Assembly (NCBI RefSeq): GCF_026151205.1
Contig: NC_087077.1
Coordinates: forward strand, 15,598,983 to 15,662,982
Direction: 5' to 3'
From: Bolinopsis microptera
Taxonomy: Eukaryota; Ctenophora; Tentaculata; Lobata; Bolinopsidae
DNA length: 64,000 bases
Part shown: positions 5,030 to 64,000 of the stretch, piece by piece
Numbering within the stretch: position 1 is the first letter of the stretch
Layout: each line of letters starts with the position of its first letter
Notes under the pieces: model-generated
Databases searched by the model: none
What the model was told of the DNA's origin: nothing
Seen by the model: only the letters and a program-made list of their open reading frames with translations
Translations under genes and position numbers: made by a program

Positions 5030-5163
5030 TTAATAACGAGTTTTAGGCTTCAGGGCGTTTCCTTGAGCATAGAGGCGTGTTAGGTCTCTATGTTTTATTT
5101 TGCAGATATCTTTTGCCGCTGGGTATACGGTTTGGAGCGTTACTTTACGTAGCTGCAGTAATC
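5030..5163 (-). pseudogene. X-domain C-terminal half
   Basis: The minus strand encodes LLQLRKVTLQTVYPAAKDIC, then LTRLYAQGNALKPKTRY and a stop at 5030. This aligns with LQLRDVRLPSVYTFANEICN and GVVLAPKNNY in the copies at 42.5, 45.2 and 62.6 kb. The N-terminal half is replaced upstream by the 81-bp tandem repeat. It sits on the same strand as, and downstream of, a FLYWCH finger and a Pro/Ala-rich segment, so the three may be pieces of one former gene. Function unknown. The fold is probably DNA-binding. Confidence 0.5.
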
Positions 5164-5359
5164 GCACTATATAGTGACAACACTATATAGTGACAAGCAC
5201 TTTATAATGACAGCTGATCTTAGTCATTATATAGTGTGCAAAACGAACTATATAGTGACAACACTATATAGTGACAAGCACTTTATAATGACAGCTGATC
5301 TTAGTCATTATATAGTGTGCAAAACGCACTATATAATGACAACACTATATAGTGACAAG
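5163..5359. repeat. 81-bp tandem repeat (about 2.4 copies) with internal palindromes
   Basis: CACTATATAGTGACAAGCAC recurs at 5181 and 5262 and the register continues at 5343, a spacing of 81 bp. Each unit contains the perfect palindrome CACTATATAGTG. It also has an imperfect inverted repeat, GCACTTTATAATGACAGCTG against the reverse complement of TAGTCATTATATAGTGTGC, so single strands could fold into hairpins. It looks like a small palindromic element duplicated in tandem. Confidence 0.8.
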
Positions 5360-5365
5360 TTTATC

Positions 5366-5640
5366 TTATATCGACTTTTCCTTACTTTTCTTTAAGTCTA
5401 CTTTTAGAATACTACTAAAGCAAATAATTGTATTTAAGTCAAATGTTTTTAGAGCGATGGACCAGGATCTCTGCTCTTTGTGGTTCGGAGAGTTCTTTAC
5501 TGTCTGTTCATGAAGCACCAGTCGAGCCAGACAGCCAGGAACAACACAGGTCCAGTAGGTGACTCCATCAGTTCCGTTCCTCTTTCTGTTTAAGGTGTAC
5601 CGTTGACCATCCACGAGAGAGATTTCCCGTTGATGGTCAA
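5366..5640 (-). pseudogene. FLYWCH-type zinc-finger fragment
   Basis: The minus strand encodes ISLVDGQRYTLNRKRNGTDG, then TYWTCVVPGCLARLVLHEQT, then NSPNHKEQ. The pattern (RYxLNRK, W-x-C, C-x-A-R, then H) is the FLYWCH fold, a WRKY/GCM1-related zinc finger often found in MULE-linked and nuclear proteins. The second ligand His is not evident (PNHKE), so zinc binding is doubtful. Upstream, after a frameshift near 5630, the strand reads RNITIDGVLVEYRTVLN, resembling the start of the X domain. No ATG-initiated complete gene is visible. Confidence 0.55.
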
Positions 5641-6010
5641 GTTGAGTACTGTTCTGTATTCCACCAAAACTCCGTCAATGGTAATGTTCCTCACTCGTGT
5701 CCGACGAGCTGCTGGAGGAGCGGTTGCTGGAGCTGCAGGAGGAGGGGTTGCTGGAGCTGCGGGAGGAAGGGTTGCTGGAGCTGCGGGAGGAGGGGTCGCT
5801 GGAGCTGCGGGAGGAAGGGTTGCTGGAGCTGCGGGAGGAAGGGTTGCTGGAGCTGCGGGAGGAGGGGTTGCTGGAGCTGCGGGAGGAGGGGTTGCTGGCG
5901 CTGCGGGAGGAGGGGTTGCTGGAGCTGCGGGAGGAGGGGTCGCTGGAGCTGCGGGAGGAGGGGTTGCTGGAGCTGCTGGAGGAGGGGTCGCTGGAGCTGC
6001 GGGAATATTT
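5640..6010 (-). repeat. 24-bp coding-type repeat (Ala/Pro-rich linker) upstream of the FLYWCH fragment
   Basis: There are about 12 units of 24 bp, GTTGCTGGAGCTGCGGGAGG plus GAGG on the plus strand, between about 5722 and 6003. On the minus strand they read as an Ala/Pro-rich linker like those preceding X domains at 42.9 and 63.4 kb. The period is a multiple of three and the units are nearly identical, so the array keeps every frame open on both strands. The long plus-strand frames here are therefore by-products. Confidence 0.75.
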
Positions 6011-11222: not shown

Positions 11223-11825
11223 CTTCTTTTTTTTGGGGACTGGCCCGTGGTACCAGCCAATGTTTATTGTTTACTCAAAAAAATAAATATAATATCAATG
11301 GTAATACGACATTCATCCCCGTGACGCCACCGTCGCATTCTGCAACCATCTGGAACACGTTTTGCAGATTACAGTCAACCTCTCGAAAACCATTCTTCTC
11401 CACACTTGGTAACTCGGTAATCTGCCGATGCACATCTGGGGCACACCTCGGGCACAAACTCGGGCACACCTGGGGCACATCTCGGGCACATCTCGGGCAA
11501 AACCACCTGGGGCACGGCTACTAACCTCACAATAATAAATGATAGATATCATTTATTATTATGATATTATTTATTACTATATGATGATAGATATCATTAT
11601 TTATATTACTTATATTGGTGACAGTATTAAACTATATGTATGAGCAATATAATTTTCAGAGACACAATTTTAACTTTGTTTATATTATTTATTTATTAAC
11701 GAGCAATTGAAAAATACGATTGATCTGTTCGTAATGTATTTAATAAATTCAATAGGTAAGCATTATTATATTATCAAAGTATCAATCGGAACATCTCATA
11801 ACCATTAAAAACTATAAGTATTACT

Positions 11826-12160
11826 GTAACAGAAAGGTTCCGGTTACAGATGTCCCTGGCCACTGGTAGAAGGTTTTTCAGTGTGGGATTAATCAGCTGG
11901 AGGAGTCCATGTCGGAGAGAAGGTAGGTCAATCCTCGCTGCCTCTGCTATGCAGCGCTTCCTGCCGAAGGACTCAGATATCCCCTCTGCAGCGAGTGCCT
12001 CCTTCTTCGTAGCACCATTCCGGACACGTGCCAGGATCCTGTCGTACTTTGAAACTTCTCCATCGATGGTGAAGGTGCGTGTTGAAGGAAAAAATTGGAA
12101 TGGGGAATTTCGATTTTCGAAAGGACAGAACTCATGGCGAAGGGGTTCTTAGGAGTAGAC
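11826..12160 (-). pseudogene. X-domain ORF (copy at 12 kb)
   Basis: The minus strand is open without an ATG. It encodes PSTRTFTIDGEVSKYDRILA, RVRNGATKKEALAAEGISES, FGRKRCIAEAARID, LRHGLLQL and DICNRNL, so it is a nearly whole X domain. The copy at 52.6 kb has SFFGRKR where this has SFGRKR. The C-terminal LAxLR-GxVLxPK block is missing, so the copy is 3' truncated. The lack of an ATG suggests an exon or a relic. Confidence 0.55.
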
Positions 12161-13718: not shown

Positions 13719-14259
13719 TTAATACTGTCTTTTCGGTTTGAGAACCGTTCCTGCAGCATGCAGAGTTCTCAGCTCAGCTAATTTCCTGTTACAAATTGAA
13801 GATGCGATAGGGAGGCATTCTTCAATGTAACGTTTCGTAGTTGTAGCATTCCGTGCTGCAGTGCCACCATATCCACCACATTAACAACTGATCCATCTGA
13901 AATCTGAATACATCTTTAAAACGAAACGTACTTTCTCTTAAAGCTATCCGCCAAAGGACTAGCTTATAGACTCCGGGACTGCGTTCGTTGTCATGTCTTA
14001 AAGTCGCCGCGAGTATTACTTTTGCTCTAGTGAGCAACCCGCGTTGTAGCTGGTATTGCACCCACTCGAAGTGGGGTCGTTTCTTCTTGATGGTGGTCGT
14101 GTAACGCCATCCACGAATATCAAACTCAATCTCGTAGCTCATTTCCCCGGATATCACGTTGAGAACTGTTGCCCTGCCTTCGAAGATTCGTGGTGTCAGC
14201 ATCAACCTTACTGCATTCGGGTTCTGCATCTGACGCCTGTTCACCTGTCCTCGCATCAA
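13719..14259 (-). pseudogene. Degenerate FLYWCH-like domain joined to an X-domain C-terminus
   Basis: Minus strand: RATVLNVISGEMSYEIEFDI, then RGWRYTTTIKKKRPHFEW, then LTRAKVIL and RHDNE. The layout (TVLN, RYT, K-rich, W, xRAxV, HxxE) follows the FLYWCH piece at 5.4-5.6 kb. The two Cys codons lie in the +1 frame between W and TRAK. After a frameshift near 13900 the strand gives VVDMVALQHGMLQLRN and SSICNRKLAELR, then GTVLKPKRQY and a stop at 13719: the X-domain C-terminal half. It supports a FLYWCH plus X-domain gene organisation. Confidence 0.5.
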
Positions 14260-31510: not shown

Positions 31511-31863
31511 TTTCCTATGATCTGTTGTCGAAATAAAGAGATTAGATTTAAACTTGATTCTGTTCGATGGATACAGTGTTGAATTGATAAAAAGTTGAAC
31601 AAATTGTGAGAATTGTACACATTGTAGCAATCATTTCAAGTTGATCGAAAAATTCAAAATATAATTATAACATGAATCATTAAATCTAATAAAATATGAA
31701 CTTTGACAATAACTCTGATAGTTACAGTCTTCAATATCTGCCTTTAGGAGGTATGTCTTCTTTTTGTGAGTGGAGAGTTCTCCCACTGACCTCATTAACA
31801 AGATTCCAGCTTTCCTTGTTCTTGCATCTATCGGCTTCGTTTTCAGCTTTTATAATTTTTTGT

Positions 31864-32163
31864 TTAAGCAGCTCTTCCTCCACAGTACGGTAGCATGGAG
31901 CATGCAGAGAGAGTGTCTTTCTTTCTCAGGGCAGCAAGCTGGTGGTTGCATATATCCTTAGCAGCAGGGTAGAGGGTATGGAGCGTTATCTTCCGTATGT
32001 GCAGCATTGCTTGCTGAAGGGCAGGCTTGTCCACCATAGCAGCCTCAGATATGCAGCGTTTCCTGGTGAAGTGGGTTCTTGATATCCCCACTGCGTTTAG
32101 AGATGCTGCAAGAGATTCTCCAGCGTTGACTCGGTCCAAGATTGATTTGTACTCTGTTTGTAT
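31864..32163 (-). pseudogene. X-domain exon
   Basis: It follows a strong acceptor (ttttattttattttcattag). The exon encodes TEYKSILDRVNAGESLAASL, NAVGISRTHFTRKRCISEAA, MVDKPALQQAMLHIRK and AAKDICNHQLAALRKKD. It then diverges (LSACSMLPYCGGRAA, stop). It is an almost complete X domain with the ISRTHFTRKRC core. The splice acceptor shows that at least some X domains were exons of spliced genes. Confidence 0.5.
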
Positions 32164-32261
32164 TCTAATGAAAATAAAATAAAATTGTCATTTATTTAAT
32201 AAAACGTCAACTATGACATAACCATTAAATCAAGCTGTATGTCTGATCTAAATGTTTTGTA

Positions 32262-38339: not shown

Positions 38340-38880
38340 AATGCTGACCCATTATTCCTGCAGTCGCCCCACCACCTTCCATTATTCCTGCAGTCCCTGC
38401 AGTCGCTCCACCGCCTCCCACTGCAGCAGCTCCTCCGCAGCTCCTCCACATCCGAGCTCGCTCAGTAATGAGGACTTTTTCCATCCTTGGGATCGTTCAC
38501 GAATATGACAGAGTAAAGATGACTCTCCTCCGTCACCAACTTGACCTACACTGGCAGCTGGACATCAGAAAGCCGTCCCTACCCTCCATCCACCTGAAGT
38601 CGGAGCTGATCGAGTATGTTGGAGTAAGATCAACACTTCCGTTCACCCTGGTTGGAGTGCCACATACCTTCCTCCTGGTGCCAAAGATCCTTCTACCGCA
38701 AGAAGAAGATAGCAGAGCTGATTATCCTCGATAGACCACGATTCAGCAGTCTCATCAAAGGAGCGGACTGACAGGATCAACCAGCAGATTCTTTCTGACC
38801 GATGTGGGGCTATCCTCAAGCAGAGTGACTTTCTGGAGAAGAAACGACTCGCAATTGCTGCTGGAAAGATTCTCTAAATG
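38340..38880 (+). pseudogene. Chimera: Pro-rich/X-domain N-terminus fused to T-family middle
   Basis: 38340-38515 encodes a Pro/Ser-rich linker ending RTFSILGIVHEYDRV, identical to the start of the X domain at 63.27 kb. Directly after GACAGAGT it switches in frame to KMTLLRHQLDLHWQLDIRKP and continues as the T-family copy at 60.42-60.79 kb, reverse oriented, down to RLAIAAGKIL near 38877 after a frameshift. In the 60-kb copy the same residues follow HHARWMAKSIYILKM. So the X domain and the catalytic part were both deleted across one junction. Confidence 0.55.
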
Positions 38881-38893
38881 TAAATTATTAGGG

Positions 38894-39525
38894 AAGTTGG
38901 TCGTTTAGCTCCGGACAGTCTATGCAACGTCTATGCAACGTCCGTGCAACAACAAAAGAACCGTCTATGCAACGTCCCTGCACAATGAACACTCTATGCA
39001 CACTCCCTGCACGGTCAGTCTATGCAACGTCTATGCAACGTCTATGCAACGTCCCTGCACAGTACCATATGAACACCGGCTACTAGCCGGCTACTAGCCG
39101 GCTAGTAGCCACTTTTGTAATAACAGCTCCTCAACTTCACATTAACAACCGGCTACTAACCGGCACTTGAAAAGTGGTCACTAGCCGGCTACTAACCGGC
39201 TACTAGCCGGCTAGTGACCACAAAGTGGCTACTAACCGGCTACTAAGCGGTCACTAGCCGGCTATTAGCCGAGCTCTAAAGCAGACCTATTAGTAGCCGG
39301 TTCTAAACCGGCTACTAGCCGGCACTTGAAAAGCGGTCACTAGCCGGCTACTAACCGGCTAGTAACCACCAAGTGGCTACTAACCGGCTACTAACCGGTC
39401 ACTAGCCGGCTCTTAAGCGGACCTACTAGCCGGCACTCGAAAAGCGGTCGCTAGCCGGCTACTAACCGGCTACAAACCGGCTAGTAACCACCAAGTGGCT
39501 ACTAACCGGTCACTAGCCGGCTCTA
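38894..39525 (-). repeat. Copy A, outer part: GTTGCATAGAC array and CCGGCTACTAGCC satellite
   Basis: 38915-39065 carries tandem words TCTATGCAACG (reverse complement CGTTGCATAGA) broken by TCCCTGCACGGTCAG. 39080-39525 is a dense array of CCGGCTACTAACCGGCTACT and GGTCACTAGCCGG, with spacers CACCAAGTGG and TCTAAAGCGGACC. The satellite is cut at 39525 by a CR1-like LINE and resumes at 41844. Confidence 0.85.
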
Positions 39526-41843
39526 CTTACTTTAGGTTACTTTAGGTAGGTTCGGCAGGGATCGCTTCTGGACAACAGTATCAAGTAAGTCCTCCAATCA
39601 CTCCTGGCTTAGATCTTTTTGTAGAGTCCATTCCAGAAGAGAATTATTTGTGATGGCGGTATACCCTTTTGTGGGCGGGGTGTCCGGGAAGCCTTTCAGG
39701 AATTTAGCAAGGGAGGATTTGAAAGTTTCCAAGACTTGGATTGTGTTAACTTCCTTGGGGAGCAGGTTCCATAGTTTGGCTGCTTTTACTCCAAAAGAGT
39801 TTTCATAATGGGTCGAGATTGAGCATTGTGCCTTTTTGTTAAATGCAGGCACAGTGGCCTTTACACCGTGTCGGGAGCTTTCCTTGAACTGCATGTTGAT
39901 GTCGTTCGGAGCTAATCCATTCATCATCTTCCATGTATGGATTATGATGTATCGTTCTCTGCGTCTCTGTAATGAGAGAAGATTCAGGTTCTGCAGGCGT
40001 TCCCAGTAATCAAGGTTCTGGTAGCCACTGATTCGACGAGTGTAGTGTCGTTGGATGCTTTCAATAGCTTCTATATCGCTGATCTTGTCAGGGTTCCACA
40101 CCGGGCAGCAGTATTCGAGTTTGCTTCTCACCATGGTTTTGTAGAGTGTGAGCATGAGGAAGCGTGACCTATCTCTGAATACGCTAAGGACCCATGACGT
40201 CATCGTCCTTGCTGTTTTAGCCATCTGCTGTATGTGAGAAGACCAGGAGCAGTCATTTGACAGGAGAACCCCTAGGTCCCTCACAGTTTTGGCTGGGTCA
40301 ATAGTTCTTCCATTTGTTAAATTGTAACAGGAAAATTGACTGGTGAAGGGCAATTCTCTTAACAGTAATGAATTGTTCAAGCTGTAATTCAATATTTCGA
40401 ATTTGGCCTCATTTAGTTGCATGTTGTTCTTCAGGGCCCAAGCGATTACATTTAGGAGGTCGTCTTGAAGTAGGCTTTTGGTAGCTAAGTCCATGATTTT
40501 TCCAATGAGCTTGGTGTCGTCAGCAAACACCTTTCCCAGAGCGGTAACCAATGTATCAAGTTGGTCGTCAATGTATAGAATGAAAAGAATGGGTCCCAAT
40601 ACTGTTCCTTGGGGTACCCCACTGATTACTAGCTGAAAGGATGATTTTGTTCCTTCCACGACTACGGTTTGCAGGCGATCCTTCAGGAATTCAGTCAGCC
40701 ATTGCAGAGTCTTTCCTTTTATTCCATAGCGTTTTGCCTTTGCAAGTAATATTTGATGATCTACCTTATCGAACGCTTTGGCATAATCAAGGTATATAAC
40801 ATCAACCTCGTTGCCGTCGTTGAGAGTTTTCAGGATGTTATCTACGTGGTCTATTAGTTGAGTTAAGCAGCTTCTTTTCTTGCGGAATCCATGCTGATGG
40901 GGGGAGAGAAAGCTGTTTGACTCCATATGTTCCACAAAATGATTTCTGACCACTCTCTCAAATATCTTAATAATGTGAGAGGTTATCGAGACAGGGCGAT
41001 AGTTAGCGGCAGATGTTCGGTCTCCTTTCTTGAACACAGGCGTGATGTACTGTGTCTTCATGCCAGATGGTATGACTCCGTTATCAAATGAGCGTTTCCA
41101 GAGTAGATAAATTGGTTCAGCGATTGTCCTTCGACATTTAGTTAGGATCTTGGCCGGGATGTCACCATCAGGGGTGGAGGCATACGGGTCCAGTTCCTTT
41201 ATGGCATCTGATATGTCGTCTGCTGTGAAGGTGAATGTGTTGAGATCTTCTTTTGGATGAGGATCTAATCCGGCGAGGCATTCTTCAACATTTGCAGAAT
41301 TTGGGTTGCTGAAGACTGTGACATATTGAGTCTGGAGAATTTCTGCTTTTTCCGCTGGGTCCATTTTCAGAGTTCCGTTTTTATCTCTAATTGGGGCGAC
41401 GGATGATTTTACCTTTGCAAATCGTTTAGCGTAAGAATAAAAGAATCTTGGGTTCGTCTTTATTGTACTTACAGCTTTAACTTCTTTTTCGTTAAGTTGC
41501 TTGATCACAAGTTCACTTATTTCGAAGGTCAGAAGATTCACTTCGGTTTTCAGCTTTTCGATTTTCCTCGAAGTTGGGTTGTTTTGAGTAAGTGCACTTA
41601 TTTTGGCATTGAGTTTTCTTCTTTTCCTCTTCATTGTGTATTTTTCACGGACTTGGCGACTTCTACGGGGGCGGGAAGGGCCAGATCCAGTAGGGTCTTT
41701 AGAAGGCGAGTTTAGGAGGGTTATCTGAAGGACAGTTAGGCGTATCAGCTCCAGAAAGGCACTTCCATCTTCATCTTCATAACAGAGTTCTCTCAAAGAG
41801 ATCCAGTTAACAGCTTCTAAACGATCGTTCATTGCTTCAAAAT
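39526..41843 (-). mobile_element. 5'-truncated CR1-like LINE inserted in satellite A
   Basis: It interrupts GGCTCTA/AAGCGGACC, a site that is intact in copy C (62.06 kb). Flanking CTCTA (39521-39525 and 41844-41848) is a likely 5-bp duplication. The 3' end on the minus strand is a short tandem repeat, ACCTAAAGTAACCTAAAGTA, typical of the CR1/L2 group. The 5' end is truncated before the endonuclease. The single long frame is intact. Confidence 0.85.
39598..41832 (-). CDS. LINE reverse transcriptase (744 aa), CR1/Jockey group
   Basis: Uninterrupted frame. Residues 1-170 are the linker between endonuclease and RT, with a basic segment (RRSRQVREKYTMKRKRRK). RT motifs follow in order: KTQYITPVFKKGDRTSAANY, HQHGFRKKRSC, VIYLDYAKAFDKVDHQILL (motif A with catalytic Asp), SGVPQGTVLGPILFILYIDD (motif B) and KVFADDTKLIG (motif C, FADD). 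The thumb and C-terminal region follow (DLGVLLSNDCSWSSHIQQM, KLEYCCPVWNP). RT would copy its own RNA at nicked target DNA. No endonuclease domain, so not autonomous. The intact frame suggests recent insertion. Confidence 0.9.
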   Translation of the reverse strand: MNDRLEAVNWISLRELCYEDEDGSAFLELIRLTVLQITLLNSPSKDPTGSGPSRPRRSRQVREKYTMKRKRRKLNAKISALTQNNPTSRKIEKLKTEVNLLTFEISELVIKQLNEKEVKAVSTIKTNPRFFYSYAKRFAKVKSSVAPIRDKNGTLKMDPAEKAEILQTQYVTVFSNPNSANVEECLAGLDPHPKEDLNTFTFTADDISDAIKELDPYASTPDGDIPAKILTKCRRTIAEPIYLLWKRSFDNGVIPSGMKTQYITPVFKKGDRTSAANYRPVSITSHIIKIFERVVRNHFVEHMESNSFLSPHQHGFRKKRSCLTQLIDHVDNILKTLNDGNEVDVIYLDYAKAFDKVDHQILLAKAKRYGIKGKTLQWLTEFLKDRLQTVVVEGTKSSFQLVISGVPQGTVLGPILFILYIDDQLDTLVTALGKVFADDTKLIGKIMDLATKSLLQDDLLNVIAWALKNNMQLNEAKFEILNYSLNNSLLLRELPFTSQFSCYNLTNGRTIDPAKTVRDLGVLLSNDCSWSSHIQQMAKTARTMTSWVLSVFRDRSRFLMLTLYKTMVRSKLEYCCPVWNPDKISDIEAIESIQRHYTRRISGYQNLDYWERLQNLNLLSLQRRRERYIIIHTWKMMNGLAPNDINMQFKESSRHGVKATVPAFNKKAQCSISTHYENSFGVKAAKLWNLLPKEVNTIQVLETFKSSLAKFLKGFPDTPPTKGYTAITNNSLLEWTLQKDLSQE

Positions 41844-42290
41844 CTCTAAAGCGGACCTTCTAGTTCCAAACCGGCTACTAGCCGACACTTGAAAAGCGGT
41901 CACTAGCCGGCTACTAACAGGCTACTAACCGGCTAGTAACCACCAAGTGGCTACTAACCGGTCACTAGCCGGCTCTAAAGCGGACCTTCTAGTTCCAAAC
42001 CGGCTACTAGCCGACACTTGAAAAGCGGTCACTAGCCGGCTACTAACCGGCTACTAACCGGCTAGTAACCACCAAGTGGCTACTAACCGGTCACTAGCCG
42101 GCTCTAAAGCGGACCTTCTAGTTCCAAACCGGCTACTAGCCGACACTTGAAAAGCGGTCACTAGCCGGCTGGTGGGTACTAGCTGGTTAGTAGACGGCTA
42201 CTAACCAGCTAGTACCCACCAAGTGGCTACTAACCGGCTACTAACCGGCTAGTACTAACTAGCTCTAGGCGACTCTAAATCAGACCGGCT
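41844..42290 (-). repeat. Copy A, inner part of the CCGGCTACTAGCC satellite
   Basis: Continuation of the satellite after the LINE. A higher-order unit of about 125 bp (GCGGACCTTCTAGTTCCAAA through CACTAGCCGGCTCTAAA) is repeated nearly three times. It ends in GACTCTAAATCAGACCGGC and a TTATTTGAAACAAATTATTT tract (42318-42425) present in all three copies. Confidence 0.85.
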
Positions 42291-42489
42291 ATAATTCATT
42301 ATTGCCAAATAAACAAATTATTTGAAACAAATTATTTGAAACTTGTTATTTGAAACTTGTTATTTGAAACAAATTATTGAAATGAATTATTTGAAACAAG
42401 TTATTTGAAACACGTTATTTGAAAGTAAGTTCCAAAATCGATTACAACATTTTTATGAAAAATAAAAAAATACTGAAAACTGATTACAT

Positions 42490-43354
42490 TCAATTTCTTC
42501 GTGGTGGAGGAGCAGTGTAATTGTTTTTGGGCGCTAGGACGACGCCTTGGGTACAAAGGGTCCTAAGAGTGGCAAGATTACGGTTGCAGATCTCGTTTGC
42601 GAAGGTGTAAACACTAGGAAGTCTGACGTCTCGTAGTTGCAGCAGTGCGTGTTGGACACCTGGTAGGTCAACTTTTGCTGCTTCAGCGATACATCGCGTT
42701 CTTGAGAAGTGACTCCGAGAAATGTGTATCTGCTCCAGAGCGGCAGACTTTGAGAGACCAGAGTTGACTAGCTGCACAACGGCGTCGTATTCCGCTATAA
42801 CCCCGTCTAAAGAAAATATCCGCCTCGTTCTGCGACCAGAGCTGGAGGTTGAGGAGCTGGAGGTTGAGGAGCTGAAGCGGGAGGAGCTGGAGCGGGAGGA
42901 GCTGGAGCGAGAGGGGCTGGAGCGGTTGAGGAGCTGGAGGTTGAGGAGCTGGAGTGGGAGGAGCTGGAGCGAGAGGGGCTGGAGCGGGAGGCGGTTGAGG
43001 AGCAGCAGCGGTACGAGGAGCTAGTCCTGAAACAGTGGGAGGAGGGGGTGGGGTAGGTCTTGAAGTAGAAGAGGTTCTAAGTCGGTGATTGGTGGTGGGG
43101 ATAGGTCTGTTTGGTCGAATTGTGGGTGTAGAGTGCAGGGAGCACGGATCGATGTGTACTATAATCTGTAGATAATCTGGGTCCTCTCTGTAAGCGCTTC
43201 TAACAGTCCGAATGCAGGCAGTACATCTGAGGGAGGGAAGGTCGGGACTGTAAGTCCTTCTGGAGCAGATTGAGGAGATGTGACCGGTAGACCCACAGTG
43301 ATCGCATTTAGGAGCAGGTGTAGGAGCGGTATATCTGTTTCTTCTGGTCCGCAT
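42490..43354 (-). pseudogene. CCHC zinc-knuckle / Pro-rich / X-domain protein (copy A)
   Basis: ATG at 43354. Residues 1-33 include the zinc knuckle CDHCGSTGHISSIC (CX2CX4HX4C), then RCTACIRTV, a long Pro-rich linker (RPTPPPPPTVSGLAPRTAAA) and 12- to 27-bp degenerate repeats. A frame change inside those repeats (42840-42960) is needed to reach the X domain: GRRTRRIFSLDGVIAEYDAV, VQLVNSGLSKSAALEQIHIS, RSHFSRTRCIAEAAKVDLPG, LQLRDVRLPSVYTF, EICNRNLATLRTLC, and the tail TAPPPRRN. Knuckle plus HTH-like domain suggests a nucleic-acid-binding accessory protein of a mobile element. Most complete architecture in the window. Confidence 0.6.
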
Positions 43355-43359
43355 GTTGA

Positions 43360-43930
43360 TTAAGAGTAAAGAATGATGTATAGTAAAGAACGATGTAAAG
43401 AACGAGGGATAAATAAGTTGGTGGCTAATGCTACTTATATAGTTTTTGGAAAGGTCTGCAGGTCCGTCAGGGCTCGTTATACCCATGGTTATTTGATCTG
43501 ATCTATCATGCATGGTGTCACGTCAAATCCTAACGATTGCGGTGATCCGTTAGAACTCAATTGGGGATCACATCGTTTTCACTGATCACGTCCCTGCAGG
43601 GATTCTTATGCAAAAGGAGGGATATAACCTAAACAATCTTGATAAAAGGATTAAAAAATGACTATGATACTTGATGCGTCCCATATCATAAATAATTTGG
43701 GATCCATCAGTTTCGGTTCGGTTTATAGATCGTTTCTTAGTAAAGTGGGAGCAAGCGGAGCATTCGTCTATTTTCAAAATACAATAATTGCGATATTACT
43801 CGTCAGCCAGCGCAGGCCAGCGCAATATAGTTGCGATATTACTCGTCAGCCAGCGCAGGCCAGCGCAATATAGTTGCGATATTGATTCTCTTTAACTTTC
43901 TAACATGCTTACCTTCATCAAATCTTAACA
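43360..43930. other. Spacer between palindrome copies A and B (left part)
   Basis: 43790-43876 is a 43-bp direct duplication (GCGATATTACTCGTCAGCCA...) containing the ATAGTTGCGATATT word. 43705-43778 repeats 4432-4505. No gene. Confidence 0.5.
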
Positions 43931-44225
43931 CTACAAGCCGAAGCTATCCCATGGCGTCTTCCTCTACAACTACCACCGGTAGAAGTCAAACGGCTCAATA
44001 ACTTGGAGATGTGAGATGAACAGCAAGCACTACCGGGATAGAGGGATATCCTGGAGAGCGACGGCTTCTACCACTGGAACTTCTCCTACCTCTACCTTGG
44101 AGTTGGCCCGCGATCACACCCACCCTCCTGACAACTCCAAGATTAGAGCAAGAGTGATCTGGCAGAATGTGAGGGAGGGAACGGGCTACCACGGAACCGA
44201 CACCCAAGCAGACAGCTCGCAATAG
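43930..44225 (+). pseudogene. FLYWCH-type zinc-finger fragment
   Basis: The plus strand has LSHGVFLYNYHR, a stop, then KSNGSITWRCEMNSKHYRDR and, after an apparent frame disturbance, DHTHPPDNSKIRARVIWQNV followed by REGT. FLYxY, W-R-C and the HxH pair are FLYWCH ligand and core positions. The second Cys (CxAR) is lost in this reading. It lies between X-domain copies A and B and on the same strand as B, about 540 bp upstream. Confidence 0.5.
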
Positions 44226-44763
44226 TAGGATTGTAACTCTGGTTTCCACCTACCCCAGCAACAACATTGATCGGACCCTCCGAGGGATTGCTTTCAACTA
44301 TATGACTTGATGTTATATTAATATTGGAGTATGTAACATTGTTTTAATATTTTAGCATGTGACAGTATATTATCAGGGATTATTAGAATCAGAATGTAAC
44401 CGTTGTATGGTTATACGTCATATGACTCCACTTTTGACCTATTTAACGGCAACTTATTAATTTCATAATCGCACCGGTTTTCTTCCTAGGGGGTGCAATT
44501 ACAAACTAATTGCACTGCTCATTTGCACTGCTCAACGCAATTATTTTACAGGGTGGCCCAAGAACGTTCACCAGTTCTTATCTCTTAAAATTGTTACATG
44601 TCGCTCGGATCTTGCTAATTATTTTAAAAACAAAAAGTGGCATAACTTATGTTCTGATAAATATTTTTGCTTCAAAATTTAACAGAATCTTACATATATA
44701 AAGCGAGACGATATATATATATATTTGTTACCATTTTACTGACACCAGGGCATCAACTTTAAC
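44226..44763. other. No gene; AT-rich spacer
   Basis: A TATATATATATAT run sits near 44712. The sequence before 44759 (CATTTTACTGACACCAG) resembles a splice acceptor for the X-domain exon. Confidence 0.35.
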
Positions 44764-45242
44764 ACGACGTTCCGCAAAAACCTGATCAACAACCTGCTCC
44801 CAATTCTCCTCAACCTCCTGCTCAGCAAGCTGCTCCTGGACACCAACCTGCTACTGATCAGCAACCTGCTCCCAATGCTGCTGCTCTGCCTACTGGTCGC
44901 AGAACGAGGCGGATATTTTCTTTAGACGGGGTTATAGCGGAATACGACGCCGTTGTGCAGCTAGTCAACTCTGGTCTCTCAAAGTCTGCCGCTCTGGAGC
45001 AGATACACATTTCTCGGAGTCACTTCTCAAGAAAGCGATGTATCGCTGAAGCAGCAAAAGTTGACCTACCAGGTGTCCAACACGCACTGCTGCAACTACG
45101 AGACGTCAGACTTCCTAGTGTTTACACCTTCGCAAACGAGATCTGCAACCGTAATCTTGCCACTCTTAGGACCCTTTGTACCCAAGGCGTCGTCCTAGCG
45201 CCCAAAAACAATTACACTGCTCCTCCACCACGAAGAAATTGA
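44764..45242 (+). CDS. X-domain protein, copy B (exon or short gene)
   Basis: Open from after the TAA at 44761 to TGA at 45242. It encodes a Gln/Pro-rich linker (DVPQKPDQQPAPNSPQPPAQ), then TGRRTRRIFSLDGVIAEYDA and the same X domain as copy A: VNSGLSKSAALEQIHISRSH, FSRKRCIAEAAKVDLPG, EICNRNLATLRTLC and the PPPRRN end. No ATG starts the frame, and an acceptor-like sequence at 44742-44758 suggests an upstream exon. The intact frame and near identity with A and C point to recent copying. Followed by the satellite. Confidence 0.6.
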
Positions 45243-45389
45243 ATGTAATCAGTTTTCAGTATTTTTTTATTTTTCATAAAAATGTTGTAATTATCGATTT
45301 TGGAACTTACTTTCAAATAATGTGTTTCAAATAATTTGTTTCAAATAATTTGTTTATTTGGCAATAATGAATTATAGCCGGTCTGATTT

Positions 45390-46460
45390 AGAGTCGCCTA
45401 GAGCAGGTTAGTACTAGCCGGTTAGTAGCCGGTTAGTAGCCGGTTAGTAGCCACTTGGTGGGTACTAGCTGGTTAGTAGCCGGTTAGTAGCCGGCTACTA
45501 ACCAGCTAGTACCCACCAGCCGGCTAGTGACCGCTTTTCAAGTGTCGGCTAGTAGCCGGTTTGGAACTAGAAGGTCCGCTTTAGAGCCGGCTAGTGACCG
45601 GTTAGTAGCCACTTGGTGGTTACTAGCCGGTTAGTAGCCGGTTAGTAGCCGGTTAGTAGCCGGCTAGTGACCGCTTTTCAAGTGTCGGCTAGTAGCCGGT
45701 TTGGAACTAGAAGGTCCGCTTTAGAGCCGGCTAGTGACCGGTTAGTAGCCACTTGGTGGTTACTAGCCGGTTAGTAGCCGGTTAGCAGCCGGCTAGCGAC
45801 CGCTTTTCGAGTGTCGGCTAGTAGGTCCGCTTAAGAGCCGGCTAGTGACCGGTTAGTAGCCGGTTAGTAGCCACTTGGTGGTTACTAGCCGGTTAGTAGC
45901 CGGTTAGTAGCCGGCTAGTGACCGCTTTCTAAGTGCCGGCTAGTAGCCGGTTTGGAACCGGCTACTAGTAGGTCCGCTTAAGAGCCGGCTAGTGACCGGT
46001 TAGTAGCCGGTTAGTAGCCACTTGGTGGTTACTAGCCGGTTAGTAGCCGGTTAGTAGCCGGCTAGTGACCGCTTTCTAAGTGCCGGCTAGTAGCCGGTTT
46101 GGAACCGGCTACTAGTAGGTCTGCTTTAGAGCTCGGCTAATAGCCGGCTAGTGACCGGTTAGTAGCCGGTTAGTAGCCACTTGGTGGTTACTAGCCGGTT
46201 AGTAGCCGGTTAGTAGCCGGCTAGTGACCGCTTTCTAAGTGCCGGCTAGTAGGTCTGCTTTAGAGCTCGGCTAATAGCCGGCTAGTGACCGCTTAGTAGC
46301 CGGTTAGTAGCCACTTTGTGGTCACTAGCCGGCTAGTAGCCGGTTAGTAGCCGGCTAGTGACCACTTTTCAAGTGCCGGTTAGTAGCCGGTTGTTAATGT
46401 GAAGTTGAGGAGCTGTTATTACAAAAGTGGCTACTAGCCGGCTAGTAGCCGGCTAGTAGC
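45390..46460 (+). repeat. Copy B of the CCGGCTACTAGCC satellite
   Basis: About 1.07 kb of TAGTAGCCGGTTAGTAGCCG and GCCGGCTAGTGACCG words, with spacers ACTTGGTGGTTACTAGCC and GAACTAGAAGGTCCGCTTTA. Six or so higher-order units of roughly 125-165 bp. Sub-words such as CTAGCCGGCTAG are themselves palindromic. Longer than A or C because units were gained. Confidence 0.9.
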
Positions 46461-46480
46461 CGGTGTTCATATGGTACTGT

Positions 46481-46655
46481 GCAGGGACGTTGCATAGACG
46501 TTGCATAGACGTTGCATAGACGTTGCATAGACTGACCGTGCAGGGAGTGTGCATAGAGTGTTCATTGTGCAGGGACGTTGCATAGACGTTGCATAGACGG
46601 TTCTTTTGTTGTTGCATGGACGTTGCATAGACGTTGCATAGACTGTCCGGAGCTA
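46481..46655 (+). repeat. 11-bp GTTGCATAGAC array next to satellite B
   Basis: Runs of GTTGCATAGAC with variant GTTGCATGGAC, separated by GTGCAGGGACGTTG and CCGTGCAGGGAGTGTGC. Equivalent arrays are at 38915-39065 and 61420-61590. The order is always X domain, satellite, array. Confidence 0.9.
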
Positions 46656-46867
46656 AACGACCAAGTTGCCAATTATTTTATTGCTCCAGGGTGACAGTTA
46701 CTGATTTAAAGTTATAATGATATTGTATGAACTTATTTACAACTAATATTGATTTATCCAAACATATTAATTGACAAATCATCAAAATCGTCTCTTTAAT
46801 TGACAAATCAATGTGAACTAATCATCAAACTCATGAAATAATTGGATCAAAAGTCTGATATAAGTGT

Positions 46868-47246
46868 TGTCACTATACTGCCGTGGCACTGCCGCCGTAC
46901 TGCCGCGGTACTGCCGCCGTACTGCCGCGGGACTGCCGCCGTACTGCCGCCGTACTGCCGCGGTACTGCCGCCGTACTGCCGCGGGACTGCCGCCGTACT
47001 GCCGCCGTACTGCCGCCGTACTGCCGTCGGAATTCTGATGTATGACCATTAGCAGGCAGTCGTCCCTGTACACATGATGGTGGAAAGCTCACAAGGAGCA
47101 GTACCAATTTTGGTAGCATCTCTGGACACCGTACTGCCGCGGGACTGCCGCCGTACTGCCGCCGTACTGCTGTGGAAATCTCACGAGGAGCAGTACCTTT
47201 TGGTAGCATCTCTGGACACCGTACTGCCGCCGTACTGCCGCCGTAC
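46868..47246. repeat. GC-rich 11-bp minisatellite (left palindrome arm)
   Basis: Tandem TACTGCCGCCG / TACTGCCGCGG units in three clusters, separated by AAATCTCACGAGGAGCAGTA and TTTTGGTAGCATCTCTGGAC. An 11-bp period rotates all frames, so the many long frames on both strands (AVLPPYCRG-type) are artefacts. Confidence 0.85.
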
Positions 47247-47353
47247 TGCCGTGGAAATCTCACGAGGAGCAGTACATTTTGGTAGCATCTCTGGACAGGA
47301 AATTTCTCTCTGTCCCGATGGGATCTATTGCTACTGAGCGAGAGTTCAAAATA

Positions 47354-50279: not shown

Positions 50280-50359
50280 GTTCAAAATAGCAAAACGAAT
50301 AACACAGGGAAAATACAATTTAAAGTCAGAAAATTTTCAGAAATTCCTATTTCTTAAGT

Positions 50360-51110: not shown

Positions 51111-51559
51111 ACTCCCTCGCTCTTCAAACGTTGCAAAACAATGGCATAATGGTTTCCGCAGTCTCGTCCAGTGTACTAATCATACCAAGGACTTACAGAC
51201 GGAAAGGCTGATTTTATTTCTCTTAACTTTTAGAATACTACCAAAGCAAATTGGTTGCTTTTCATTTCATTTAAGTAAAATGTATAACTGTCATAGAAAT
51301 ATCGTACAATCGAAAATATAACTAAACTAGTGTAATGTATTGGAATTGGGTTAATTTTAATTAAATTAAAGGTTAGGTTAATTTTAATTAAAAATACATC
51401 TGATACAGGCTGATGGGGGTCCATAACAACAAGAGCTGCCATAACTTTTGACATGATCTTAAATGTTGCAATGTCATATTACGTACTGTATGACATATCT
51501 CGTTATCGATACTATATAACTTTCAACAGACGACAGGAGACATCATCATTCATCATTCG

Positions 51560-52404
<845 letters not shown>

Positions 52405-52439: not shown

Positions 52440-52788
52440 TATTGTGGCAATTCGGTAATCTGCCGATGCACATCTGGGGCACACCTCGGGCACAATTCGG
52501 GGACAAACTCGGTCACAACCTTATCCTGGTTCGAGCCGCACCTTCACCATCGACGGAGAAGTTTCAAAGTACGACAGGATCCTGGCACGTGTCCGGAATG
52601 GTGCTACGAAGAAGGAGGCACACGCTGCAGAGGGGATATCTGAGTCCTTTTTCGGCAGGAAGCGCTGCATAGCAGAGGCAGCGAGGATTGACCTACCTTC
52701 TCTCCGACATGGACTCCTCCAGCTGATTAATCGGGTGAGTGTATCCTAAGACTTTGCCGGTGTAGTGACAATGATCCAGATGTTTCTT
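52440..52788 (+). pseudogene. X-domain copy in left palindrome arm
   Basis: It encodes FTIDGEVSKYDRILARVRNG, ATKKEAHAAEGISESFFGRK, RCIAEAARIDLPSLRHGLLQ and LI, then departs at NRVSVS (GGTGAGTGT, a donor-like word). It is very close to the copy at 11.83-12.16 kb, and both are preceded by TGGGGCACACCTCGGGCACA words (11436 and 52476). The mirror copy at 55251-55560 is riddled with single-base deletions. Confidence 0.6.
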
Positions 52789-55250: not shown

Positions 55251-56659
55251 TAAGACATTGTCACTACACCGGCAAAGTCTTAGGATACACTCACCCGATT
55301 AATCAGCTGGAGGAGTCCATGTCGGAGAGAAGGTAGTCAATCCTCGCTGCCTCTTCAGAATATCCCCTCTGCACGAGTGCCTCCTTCTCGTAGCACCATT
55401 CCGGACCCGTGCCAGGACCGTCGTTACTTGAAACTTTCTCCGTCGATGGTGATGGTGCGCTCGAACCAGGATAAGGTTGTGCCCGAGTTTGTCCCCCCGA
55501 TTTGTGCCCTGAGGTGTGCTCCAGAAATGTGCATCGCAGTTACCGAATTGCCACAATAACTTTATATTTTTAATCATAAACTAAGATGATTGTTTTTAGT
55601 GAGTTGATTTGACCATGGCTTCTGGTTCTGGTTCTGGTTTCTGTTCTGATCTGGTTTCTGTTCTGTGTTCTGGTTCGGTTCTGGTTCTGGTTCTGGTTCT
55701 TTAGCTGCAAGCATACCGTTTCAGCGTGCAATTTTTTCGGTGTCTTTTCCTTCCTAGAGTGTTGTATGCGAAATGGTGTTGTCGTCAGTTACTCCAAGCT
55801 CTGTTGCAGAGCTCTAACAGGTTTCGTGATAACGGCGGAGTAAGTGACGTGAAGCCGATGTCTTTTCCCCTATGTTTCTCTAGACTGCTAGGCTTCTGTC
55901 CGGATGGTATTGTGGGGCCTGTTGAAACATTGAAGAAAACTTCTGTTCTTGTCTGTAGTAACGTATCAGGACACCTTCCCATTCCTCGCGTGGTATAGTT
56001 ACATCTGTTATCAGTAACTAATGTTGTTTTGTCTTTTCCATCGTTGCTGAAATAAGTTTGTCATCGGGAACAATCATGGGCTTCCCCCGGGATGTGGGTT
56101 ATAAGAACTTCTAAAAGGTCGAGCATGGGGCCGGGTAGGATGTCGACCAGGTTGTGTAAGCTTACAAGGGGTTGAGGTGGATCCGGATGGGGATAGACTA
56201 AGTAGGGATATGGGAATTGATTGGAAAAGTTCGTAGTATTCCATTGCTTAGTTGTGAAGTGTAGATGGTCCTAAAGATGATGTCACCTGTCGTCTGGTTG
56301 AAAGTTATATAGTATCGATAACGAGATATGTCATACAGCACGTATGACATTGCAACATTTGAGATCATGTCAAAAGTTATGGCAGCTCTTGTTGTTATGG
56401 ACCCCCATCAGCCTGTATCAGATGTATTTTTAATTAAAATTAACCTCACCTTTAATTTAATTAAAATTAACCCAATTCCAATACATTACACTAGTTTAGT
56501 TATATTTTCGATTGTACGATATTTGATATTTTACTTAAATGAAATTATTTGCTTTGGTAGTATTCTAAAAGTTAAGAGAGAATAAATAAAATGAGCCTTT
56601 CCGTCTGTCAGTCCTTGGTATGATTAGTACACTGGACGAGACTGCGGAAACCATTATGC

Positions 56660-58990: not shown

Positions 58991-59027
58991 TACGTTTGAA
59001 GAGCGAGGGAGTCCAGCTAGACAGCAA
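56837..59027 (-). CDS. Penelope RT with GIY-YIG endonuclease, one frameshift
   Basis: Frame 1 (59027-58137; the first residues derive from target DNA) holds KFLPADKGNATVVLTHDQYI and YGQPKIHKPGAPIRPVVSF. It shifts at about 58150-58170. Frame 2 (to 56837) continues LDVQSLYTSCDMRLALKTVI (motif A), FYSQDEGGTMGSPLIVELAE (motif B), TYSHFVDDGLGSF (motif C, VDD), IPFLDVLIHPDKSTSVYRKP, then IYEISCSQCPSKYAGQTYRP and LVHRMKEHERCYR, the GIY-YIG nuclease with the Penelope-type CxxC insertion. The last part is Ser/Lys-rich. RT and nuclease drive insertion. Apparently inactive because of the shift. Confidence 0.88.
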
Positions 59028-59979: not shown

Positions 59980-60215
59980 AGCGGCAGTACGGCGGCAGTA
60001 CGGCGGCAGTACGGCGGCAGTCCCGCGGCAGTACGGTGTCCAGAGATGCTACCAAAAGGGTCATACATCAGAATTCCGGCGGCAGTCCCGCGGCAGTACG
60101 GCGGCAGTACGGCGGCAGTACGGCGGCAGTACGGCGGCAGTACGGCGGCAGTCCCGCGGCAGTACGGCGGCAGTACGGCGGCAGTCGTGCGGCAGTACCG
60201 CGGCAGTGCCACGGC
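59980..60215. repeat. GC-rich 11-bp minisatellite (right palindrome arm)
   Basis: CGGCGGCAGTA / CCGCGGCAGTA units, the inverted counterpart of 46868-47246. Unit number and cluster order differ from the left arm. Confidence 0.85.
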
Positions 60216-60424
60216 AGTATAGTGACAACACTTATATCAGACTTTTGATCCAATTATTTCATGAGTTTGATCATTAGTTCACATTGATTTGTCAATTAAA
60301 GAGACGATTTTGATGATTTGTCAATTAATATATTTGGATAAATCAATATTAGTTGTAAATAAGTTCATACAATATCATTATAACTTTAAATCAGTAACTG
60401 TCACCCTGGAGCAATAAAATAATT

Positions 60425-61339: not shown

Positions 61340-61397
61340 ATAAAGGGTCCTAAGAGTAGCAAGATTGCGGTTGCAGATCTCGCTTGAGAAGGGGTAT
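61340..61397 (-). pseudogene. X-domain C-terminal scrap at T-family start
   Basis: It encodes FSSEICNRNLATLRTLY, the ICNRNLATLRTLC end of the X domain, fused at that point to the T-family N-terminus (SLQERRK in one frame, STGKTEAEAV in another). It shows an X/T junction independent of the one at 62809. Confidence 0.5.
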
Positions 61398-62400
61398 GGC
61401 AACTTGGTCGTTTAGCTCCGGACAGTCTATGCAACGTCTATGCAACGTCCATGCAACAACAAAAGAACCGTCTATGCAACGTCTATGCAACGTCCCTGCA
61501 CAATGAACACTCTATGCACACTCCCTGCACGGTCAGTCTATGCAACGTCTATGCAACGTCTATGCAACGTCTATGCAACGTCCCTGCACAGTACCATATG
61601 AACACCGGCTACTAGCCGGCTACTAGCCGGCTAGTAGCCACTTTTGTAATAACAGCTCCTCAACTTCACATTACCAACCGGCTACTAACCGGCACTTGAA
61701 AAGTGGTCACTAGCCGGCTACTAACCGGCTACTAGCCGGCTAGTGACCACAAAGTGGCTACTAACCGGCTACTAAGCGGTCACTAGCCGGCTATTAGCCG
61801 AGCTCTAAAGCAGACCTACTAGTAGCCGGTTCCAAACCGGCTACTAGCCGGCACTTAGAAAGCGGTCACTAGCCGGCTACTAACCGGCTACTAACCGGCT
61901 AGTAACCACCAAGTGGCTACTAACCGGCTACTAACCGGTCACTAGCCGGCTCTTAAGCGGACCTACTAGCCGGCACTCGAAAAGCGGTCGCTAGCCGGCT
62001 ACTAACCGGCTACTAACCGGCTAGTAACCACCAAGTGGCTACTAACCGGTCACTAGCCGGCTCTAAAGCGGACCTTCTAGTTCCAAACCGGCTACTAGCC
62101 GACACTTGAAAAGCGGTCACTAGCCGGCTACTAACCGGCTACTAACCGGCTAGTAACCACCAAGTGGCTACTAACCGGACACTAGCCGGCTCTAAAGCGG
62201 ACCTTCTAGTTCCAAACCGGCTACTAGCCGACACTTGAAAAGCGGTCACTAGCCGGCTGGTGGGTACTAGCTGGTTAGTAGCCGGCTACTAACCGGCTAC
62301 TAACCAGCTAGTACCCACCAAGTGGCTACTAACCGGCTACTAACCGGCTAATAACCGGCTAGTACTAACCTGCTCTAAGCGACTCTAAATCAGACCGGCT
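61398..62400 (-). repeat. Copy C: GTTGCATAGAC array and CCGGCTACTAGCC satellite
   Basis: 61420-61590 is the 11-bp array; 61600-62395 is the satellite. It is organised as in A (same strand) and as the mirror of B. It retains the intact site GGCTCTAAAGCGGACCTTCT that the CR1-like LINE interrupts in A. Confidence 0.9.
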
Positions 62401-62530
62401 ATAATTCATTATTGCCAAATAAACAAATTATTTGAAACAAATTATTTGAAACACGTTATTTGAAAGTAAGTTCCGAAATCGATTACAACATTTTTATGAA
62501 AAATAAAAAAATACTGAAAACTGATTACAT
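62401..62530. other. TTATTTGAAA tract between satellite and X domain
   Basis: CAAATTATTTGAAACAAATT words followed by TTTATGAAAAATAAAAAAAT, conserved in A (42300-42485) and B (45245-45370). Probably the 3' UTR of the X-domain gene. No typical poly(A) tail. Confidence 0.5.
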
Positions 62531-62899
62531 TCAATTTCTTCGTGGTGGAGGAGCAGTGTAATTGTTTTTGGGCGCTAGGACGACGCCTTGGGTACAAAGG
62601 GTCCTAAGAGTGGCAAGATTACGGTTGCAGATCTCGTTTGCGAAGGTGTAAACACTAGGAAGTCTGACGTCTCGTAGTTGCAGCAGTGCGTGTTGAACAC
62701 CTGGTAGGTCAACTTTTGCTGCTTCAGCGATACATCGCTTTCTTGAGAAGTGACTCCGAGAAATGTGTATCTGCTCCAGAGCGGCAGACTTTGAAAGTCC
62801 AGAGTTGACGTACTGAGGTAGAAGCCACCACTCATCTTTTGATAGGAAGGTGTGAGACTCCCCGAGTAGCTGGAAGATGAGGATAGAGCGGGGTCCCAC
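62531..62899 (-). pseudogene. In-frame fusion of a T-family piece with the X domain (copy C)
   Basis: It encodes GPRSILIFQLLGESHTFLSK, DEWWLLPQY, then at 62809 VNSGLSKSAALEQIHISRSH, FSRKRCIAEAAKVDLPG, EICNRNLATLRTLC and the PPPRRN end. The T part aligns with YVSGRSRVLFDLLNVSLDFL, KDDNWSEAPEF at 18 kb. The X part lacks its first 20 residues. Similarity to copies A and B starts exactly at GTCAACTCTGG. The frame is open across the join, but no ATG is obvious (GTG at 62899), so expression is uncertain. Confidence 0.55.
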
Positions 62900-63096: not shown

Positions 63097-63415
63097 TTTC
63101 GTAGTTGTAGTATTCCGTGCTGCAGCGCCACCATATCCACCTTCGATGCCTCCGCAACAACTCTTTTCCGAGAGAAGAAGGAGGCCGACAGATACTCCTC
63201 GTCCAAAGCAGAGGCGAGCGATGAACCAGCATTGACTCGTCCCATCACTCTGTCGTATTCGTGAACGATCCCAAGGATGGAAAAAGTCCTCATTACTGAG
63301 CGAGCTCGGATGACGTGGAGGAGCTGCGGAGGAGCTGCGGCAGTGGAAGACGGTGGAGCGACTGCAGGGACTGCAGGAATGATGGGAGGTGGTGGAGCGA
63401 CTGCAGAAATTTACA
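63097..63415 (-). pseudogene. Pro-rich linker plus X domain (copy at 63 kb)
   Basis: After an acceptor-like sequence (attgctctgtaaatttctgcag) the minus strand reads VAPPPPIIPAVPAVAPPSST, RARSVMRTFSILGIVHEYDR, VMGRVNAGSSLASALDEEYL, SASFFSRKRVVAEASKVDMV, ALQHGILQLRK, and a stop soon after QAQ. It is the only copy here in which GIVHEYDRV continues into the rest of the domain, so it is the reference for the three copies broken at that point. Lies about 10 bp downstream of the ISXO2 transposase on the same strand. Confidence 0.55.
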
Positions 63416-63425
63416 GAGCAATAAA

Positions 63426-63989
63426 TTAATCAAAAATTCTTCTGAATAGGGCTGGGATATCTTGGTTGAAGGCTTTCCTCACGGAGGCGTCGTCTCTTGT
63501 CAGTCCGTATCGCTTACACCACATAAATGCTGACAGGGCTACAGTCATGGCTGCTGGATCAGTTCGGGTACGACCGGTTCCTCTTCTCATGTGGTTCTTT
63601 GCGTGGAACCACATCCCTTCGCAGCTGTTGGTGTGAACACCAGTGACCGGGTCCACAAATCCTCGACTATGGTTGACAATTTGATGAGGAAACCCGTGGT
63701 ATTGCAGGGCGTTATAACCTTTCCACTTGTCGGTGAGAATAGTTGTATCCGGTAGAACGTGCTCCTTGATGAGTGGGATTAGGGTGTTGTGATCGCGTCG
63801 ATTACCGGTACACTCCACTAAGAAGCAGTCGCCAGTAGTCCTACAGAACACACCCAGCACCCATTTTCCGACTACCCGTCGACCTCTGTTATATTTTCGT
63901 TTACCGAATTTGGATTCGTCAATCTCCACTATACAGCCGACCCCACCAATCTTTCTACGTGCACCGTTGTCGAACAGGTCTTCAAGCAT
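63426..63989 (-). CDS. Merlin/IS1595-type transposase catalytic domain (ISXO2-like), cut by window edge
   Basis: 187 residues. DDE-type core: VEIDESKFGKRKYNRGR (Asp about 24), TILTDKWKGYNAL (Asp about 87), GVHTNSCEGMWFHAKNH (Glu about 124, with the N-S-x-E signature), and RGTGRTR. This is the ISXO2-like domain of Merlin DNA transposons, which cut and paste DNA. The N-terminal zinc ribbon/HTH would lie beyond 64000. The reading frame is intact to the TAA at 63426. In plain order it is followed by an X-domain exon, so the two could be one transcription unit. Confidence 0.88.
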   Translation of the reverse strand: MLEDLFDNGARRKIGGVGCIVEIDESKFGKRKYNRGRRVVGKWVLGVFCRTTGDCFLVECTGNRRDHNTLIPLIKEHVLPDTTILTDKWKGYNALQYHGFPHQIVNHSRGFVDPVTGVHTNSCEGMWFHAKNHMRRGTGRTRTDPAAMTVALSAFMWCKRYGLTRDDASVRKAFNQDIPALFRRIFD

Positions 63990-64000
63990 GCAATTTCGGA

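Follow-up and report, generated by a model that had tools for sequence, protein, structure and literature searches.

The window, by which we mean the whole stretch of 64,000 nucleotides analysed here (C6:15598983-15662982 of a 264.65-Mb genome; C4, C5, C6, C10, C11 and C13 are our own contig labels), holds scattered copies of a protein domain, termed X in the following, that a first-pass annotation had picked out at ten sites, at 5.1, 12, 13.8, 32, 42.6, 45.1, 52.6, 61.4, 62.7 and 63.2 kb. The annotation took these copies for a single diverged family, and in this it is upheld: a tblastn search of the window with the 45.1-kb copy recovers all ten sites, at E-values ranging from 1.7e-59 to 3.9e-5. 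An HMM of X, built from seven family representatives and run on window ORFs of at least 80 amino acids, finds seven of the ten at E <=1e-28, the 5.1-, 13.8- and 61.4-kb sites being absent among its matches in these ORFs, with two additional matches, one of E 6.5e-6 at 5.6-6.0 kb and one of E 0.0025 at 38.35-38.73 kb. What the annotation missed is where X belongs: it forms the C-terminal domain of an accessory protein of Merlin DNA transposons, elements with terminal inverted repeats (TIRs), 8-bp target site duplications (TSDs) and subterminal arrays of 11-bp units.

Each X copy in the window is partial, broken or without its N-terminal domain (Table 1), and the full copies of the accessory gene are found elsewhere in the genome. 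The family-A element around the 42.6- and 45.1-kb copies bears X in each of two oppositely oriented arms and has a reverse-transcriptase ORF nested within it; its left-arm accessory gene is broken in the linker and split over two frames. Over 38891-39520 of this element the identity at lag 11 is 0.56, the shuffled maximum over all lags being 0.33. A retrotransposon origin of X was considered and rejected, since the reverse-transcriptase ORF is a nested insertion and forms no part of the X elements delimited elsewhere (families B and C).

Table 1. Features of the window that belong to X-bearing Merlin elements or their remains (window positions)
Feature	Position	Strand	Basis or detail
Family-C relic: X pieces 5033-5161 and 5578-5706, Pro/Ala linker	5033..6009	-	sequence search, HMM
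Family-B relic: tip 11408, array 11430-11499, X 11828-12085 (-)	11408..12085	.	tip, array, X
X relic, pieces in differing frames	13722..13984	-	tblastn
Family-D X relic, fragmented	31734..32178	-	tblastn
Small family-F X start behind a Pro-rich stretch	38348..38731	+	X HMM
Merlin family-A element, 7780 bp, enclosing the first-pass stretch (42490..45242)	38891..46670	.	GG tips; flanks AATTATTA / AATTATTT, 7/8
Left terminal arrays, period 11	38891..39525	+	GTCTATGCAAC outer, AACCGGCTACT inner
RVT_1 ORF nested in the Merlin element	39598..41859	-	Pfam E 6.7e-27
Remainder of left terminal arrays and AAACAAATTATTTG array	41844..42424	+	repeat analysis
Accessory ORF piece, X at 42526-42798	42490..43020	-	ORF, tblastn
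Zn-knuckle N-terminal domain of the 42490..43020 gene, other frame (ORF 42683-43522)	43103..43354	-	C6:15642085-15642336
Second accessory ORF piece, opposite arm, X at 44934-45206, without N-terminal domain	44763..45242	+	ORF, tblastn
Right terminal arrays, period 11	45311..46670	-	lag-11 identity 0.59 over 45400-46670
Family-B relic: tip 52446, array, X 52528-52731	52446..52731	+	tip, array, X
Short X relic	61343..61408	-	tblastn
Second family-A tip and terminal arrays	61398..62465	+	tip, repeat analysis
X domain, family A, altered N-terminus	62567..62833	-	tblastn
X domain, family F, N-terminal part	63099..63305	-	tblastn
Merlin transposase fragment, runs off the window	63429..64000	-	C6:15662411-15663031, 67% identity to family-B transposase

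Other repeats share the window with these elements. Another 11-bp array (GCGGCAGTACG and its complement) occupies 46876-47297 and 59981-60219 in mutually outward-facing copies, the latter adjoining what look like pieces of a hAT-like transposase, with no Pfam match. An inverted repeat of 89% identity (51139-52212 and 55620-56664) includes 42 arrayed copies of AGAACC and matches FLYWCH weakly, an open ORF of 978 amino acids at 47383-50319 encodes an endonuclease/reverse transcriptase, and the ORFs at 56837-59027 presumably derive from a Penelope-like element with a GIY-YIG motif, though the 473-amino-acid ORF among them has no Pfam match at E 0.001. Rfam and tRNA scans of the window returned nothing.

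Across the genome, which ASC sodium-channel and homeodomain genes outside the window suggest to be that of an animal, the 45.1-kb X query finds 81 places at E <=0.001 and the query of a second family 85, which hand merging reduced to 87 X places. Twenty of the 87 lie in an island at C6:15.35-15.82 Mb that includes the window and in which three blocks of the same arrangement (15353547, 15661549 and 15819346) look as if produced by segmental copying; at C11:9985545-9986523 (L015, L026, L027) five X copies or pieces lie head to tail inside 1 kb.

The accessory gene and its Merlin elements

The gene was read from twenty 10-kb stretches around X copies, and in complete copies X forms the C-terminal end of an uninterrupted ORF of about 280-430 amino acids, stop to stop. 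From its methionine the accessory protein runs through a CCHC knuckle (Pfam zf-CCHC at E 0.0025 and 18.3 bits, the cut-off being 20.8), a second Cys/His set of one CxxC and one CxxH, and a Pro-rich linker of short tandem repeats to X, and it ends soon after the motif LxPK. The Pro-rich linkers and CCHC knuckles noted at first as neighbours of X therefore lie within the same protein; the FLYWCH fingers named alongside them are not part of the gene, as the weak match of E 0.0055 at 51.8-52.4 kb does not reach the Pfam cut-off and is located in another element. The linker can grow: at L031:1-5292 tandem repeats have extended a Pro/Ala/Gln linker to more than 1600 residues, with several frames open over long distances. 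At L032:4901-6343 a deletion has fused transposase remains in frame with the accessory ORF, giving an ORF of 481 amino acids.

The X domains fall into families A, A', B, C, D, E and F, with 39-62% identity between families and 83% between A and A'; a far relative, G (L051), has the same architecture and aligns to X in hhalign with a probability of 77 and E 2.1e-5. Comparison of A with A' gives a dN/dS of 0.17 at a dS of 0.49, which indicates purifying selection between the two; the pairs that span different families have a dS of at least 1.5 or are saturated. B and C are 45% identical in X and 64% identical in the transposase, a comparison that shows the accessory protein to evolve faster than the transposase. 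The possibility that X is chance similarity or neutral debris is ruled out by the tblastn matches, by the HMM scores set against shuffles (below) and by this dN/dS.

Adjoining the accessory ORF, which is placed between the TIRs and keeps its architecture in diverged families, is an ORF of 318-337 amino acids that matches DDE_Tnp_IS1595 (PF12762) above cut-off, at E 2.2e-15 and 5.8e-13 in families B and C. This is the domain of Merlin transposases, and the X elements belong to the Merlin superfamily, which is defined by GG tips, TIRs of 24-462 bp and TSDs of 8-9 bp (PMC8101967; see also PMC4202319) and whose bacterial counterpart, the IS1595 family, has a single transposase gene (PMC8101967). 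The ends of the elements described here start with GG, with a TIR beginning GG in families A, B, C and D. Both tips are available for fifteen elements; ten of these are flanked by a perfect 8-bp TSD (L034, L038, L041, L042, L043, L045, L047, L048, L050 and L033 with L052), three by one matching at 7/8 (L044, L049 and the window element) and two by none (L040, 0/8; L046, 2/8). The accessory and transposase genes are divergent in B and C elements and lie on one strand in the A copies that retain transposase remains (L032, L036); an intact transposase ORF is present in none of the seven family-A stretches L032-L038. Paired Cys residues occur near the N-terminus of the transposase, in which no Pfam zinc-ribbon is matched at E up to 1, and the Zn_Tnp_IS1595 domain is, according to PMC8101967, lacking in every Merlin described so far.

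Five transposase genes of family C show no difference in 954 bases, three family-B genes show 2-5 differences per 1011 bases and six family-A X domains 0-2 differences per 321 bases. Such near-identical copies, together with intact TSDs, point to recent movement, and the two-gene Merlin variant is both real and recently mobile. Two broken family-A transposase fragments give a dN/dS of 0.61, and the transposase labelled 'F(win)' is 95% identical to that of family C.

The transposases form two groups, set by identity to one query (36-40% as against at least 46%) and not by a tree, group 2 being 36-40% identical to group 1. Next to a group-2 transposase we read one accessory ORF, L053, of 257 amino acids, in which a Pro-rich stretch precedes an X-like domain. 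The X HMM matches L053 at E 7.6e-8, and 2000 shufflings of this protein give nothing better than E 2.9; hhalign aligns X to it with a probability of 93 and E 3.2e-7; and L053 as a genome query returns the window copy C6:15643772-15644095 at E 5.3e-5.

Linkage of the two genes was measured from the 32 distinct transposase rows, out of 130, with 200 or more matched query positions, two C11 rows that overlap being counted as one, to 87 X places, 47 N-terminal places and 23 group-2/CCDC106 places. The last comprise 20 of the 24 rows for the L053 query, four being X places already, and three of the 13 rows for the Pfam model of CCDC106 (PF15794), the remainder having been dropped as duplicates, as an X place (one row) or, in one case, for an E-value of 0.97. 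An accessory gene lies within 3 kb of 23 transposases and is missing from that distance at the other nine. Outside the C6 island 20 of 29 transposases are linked; 5000 rotations, for which the length of C13 was guessed at 12 Mb, give 0.06 on average and never more than 5. Two of the unlinked transposases, C5:242434 and C4:14168844, lie between family-C arrays and are possibly deletion copies. Among the 57 X clusters outside the island, 37 have no match within 5 kb in the 93 of 130 transposase rows considered (E up to about 1e-12), so that most X copies reside in elements that lack or have lost the transposase, or else beside a transposase that escaped detection.

The links respect the groups. 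X lies within 3 kb of 13 of the 21 group-1 transposases and of none of the 11 in group 2, and the group-2 type of accessory gene accompanies seven of these 11, each link through an L053-query match, and none of the 21. The two Merlin groups thus carry homologous, diverged partner genes without mixing, group 2 being represented by the one sequence read, L053, and otherwise by search matches.

Predicted fold and possible relatives of X

AlphaFold2, supplied with nine shallow rows from the window, predicts X to be all-helical (pLDDT 81.9, pTM 0.73), with helices at residues 10-25, 30-37, 41-67, 73-86 and 88-96. The order and spacing of the first three are HTH-like, and HTH_7, HTH_23 and HTH_28 are among the sub-threshold Pfam matches of X; in prediction X is HTH-like, as the first reading had suggested. 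The N-terminal domain, modelled from one sequence, gave a poor result (pLDDT 53.9). Foldseek searches of PDB and BFVD with the X model returned nothing at E <=0.001 (99 and 163 matches at E up to 10), and we set aside the KorB DNA-binding domain (E 3.9) and virophage transposase-A proteins (E 0.6-2.3) as too weak. Sequence searches gave no solved relative of X, and a single peptide pattern gave no confirmed viral relative in IMG/VR.

X had also been called undescribed, which is correct insofar as it falls below the cut-off of every Pfam family and has to be qualified insofar as one family appears to be a distant relative. The best matches of X are to the resolvase HTH_7 (E 0.0012) and to CCDC106 (E 0.005), the family treated in PMC9208459, and the match to CCDC106 covers the C-terminal part of its profile. 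The gathering cut-off of PF15794 is 30.2 bits; two of six X representatives score 17.1 and 15.7 bits and the other four have no match, one place with tandem X reaches 32.3 bits by summing, and L053 scores 24.1 bits (E 3.7e-5), again below cut-off. In the genome the model matches 13 places, three of them within 1 kb of a group-2 Merlin transposase. With the group-2 protein as a bridge, and hence transitively, X looks distantly related to the C-terminal part of CCDC106, from which the accessory proteins differ in what precedes the domain: in group 1 a Zn knuckle, in group 2, to judge by the one protein read, a Pro-rich stretch.

This relation would suit a captured host gene that Merlin carries as a passenger with no role in transposition, and so would a cluster at C10:10783393-10845829, possibly of host genes, in which six CCDC106-like places, two of them over the Pfam cut-off, occur with no Merlin transposase match nearby. 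We nevertheless judge a passenger to be improbable, as homologous accessory genes are found in two unmixed Merlin groups whose transposases have diverged to 36-40% identity, and as the gene is kept in diverged families and bears the mark of purifying selection between A and A'.

Terminal arrays and the proposed role of the accessory protein

Arrays with a period of 11 bp line both ends of the elements in all four families examined (A, B, C and D), and their units are family-specific: GTCTATGCAAC and AACCGGCTACT in A, GCACACCTCGG in B, ACATTAAGACA in C and CACGGTTAAGG in D. The identity at lag 11 is 0.56-0.69 on the 11 arms tested, in every case more than the highest value among 200 shuffles; three coding controls, at 0.23-0.25, lack the period. 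Exact dimers of the units number 279 for C, 154 for D and 1092 for A in the genome, and dimers of the B unit with at most one mismatch 279, the reversed controls giving 0 in each case. The 99 exact B-array sites fall within 5 kb of 11 of the 18 B-type X places and of none of the 69 others (at 10 kb, 11/18 and 2/69), which leaves seven B-type places without an exact site at the shorter distance.

We consider it rather probable that the accessory protein is a partner of the Merlin transposase that binds the terminal arrays, working as TNPA does in CACTA elements or the Myb-like protein in Harbinger, but with an apparently unrelated domain. X would act as an HTH domain on the 11-bp units, next to one another along a single face of the DNA, given that the period is about one helical turn; coating both ends of the element in this manner, it would bring the ends together or to the transposase. 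The N-terminal Zn domain, across its flexible linker, could provide protein contacts or added DNA contacts, and the transposase would then cut at the GG tips, with insertion producing the 8-bp duplication. Against this model stands the presumed recognition-helix core, RKRCIAEA, which hardly varies although the array units differ by family. The lack of a significant fold match also counts against it, as do the nine of 32 transposases without a nearby accessory gene, the 37 of 57 X clusters without a nearby transposase, the seven of 18 B-type X places without an exact B-array site and the family-A stretches without an intact transposase ORF.

The GGCA(A)C of the element tips recurs in the B, C and D units, and GCAAC in the outer unit of A, so that the arrays might be bound by the transposase itself. 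They would then be reiterated transposase-binding sites, and the accessory protein would have some other task, for example nuclear import, control of element transcription or blocking of silencing by the host. The Cys-rich N-terminus of the transposase and its own sub-threshold HTH-like matches are consistent with such sites; X, however, is itself predicted to be HTH-like, and the B array is found near B-type X only (11/18 vs 0/69), yet the linkage of transposase and X leaves the two readings unseparated on this last point. We judge this reading of the arrays and the protein to be rather improbable. The arrays also flank the divergent genes of families B and C, as might be expected were the protein a self-repressor that binds them and shuts off transcription of its own element, in the manner of the Spm suppressor; L033, L034 and L038, which have an accessory ORF and no intact transposase, were inserted with perfect TSDs, which suits a regulator acting in trans. 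We regard self-repression as very improbable.

The organisation assigned here to an array-binding partner can be compared with known systems. In their DDE_Tnp_IS1595 transposase, GG tips, 8-bp TSDs and tandem repeats the elements resemble Merlin, the relative of IS1016 and IS1595, as described in PMC8101967, in which some families have internal tandem repeats. They differ in the conserved second gene and in the 11-bp subterminal arrays at both ends, the relevant part of that description dealing with transposase genes only, and in family-A arms of about 1 kb as against TIRs of 24-462 bp; the one extra Merlin ORF it mentions, overlapping and 1 kb long, is ascribed by its authors to chance (PMC8101967). 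To the extent of that account Merlin has so far been described with one protein; among the titles and abstract openings listed from the open-licence literature there was no Merlin accessory gene and no transposon origin of CCDC106. CACTA elements likewise encode a second protein alongside subterminal motifs that diversify between families (TNPA/TNPD; PMC2613891), but the transposase, the TSD length and the protein itself are different. The Myb-like second ORF of PIF/Harbinger is similarly a helical, faster-evolving DNA-binding partner of a DDE transposase (PMC9179366), whereas no Myb/SANT family was among the matches of X within the E-value limits applied. A second gene that follows the transposase group, along with 11-bp arrays at both ends, would rank Merlin with CACTA and Harbinger among the two-protein systems, and it supplies paired proteins and candidate DNA sites for recognition tests.

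Through its link to X, the origin of CCDC106 becomes testable as well. Vertebrate CCDC106 reportedly promotes the degradation of p53. Tentatively, Merlin may have been two-component from its ancestry, with a transposase and a CCDC106-type array-binding protein, in which case the vertebrate protein would be a domesticated Merlin accessory protein whose C-terminal domain formerly bound transposon ends.

Finally, the first 100 A-array places include at least nine opposed pairs, 0.8-1.3 kb apart and with no X place within 5 kb, as would be small derivatives that need only tips and arrays in cis.
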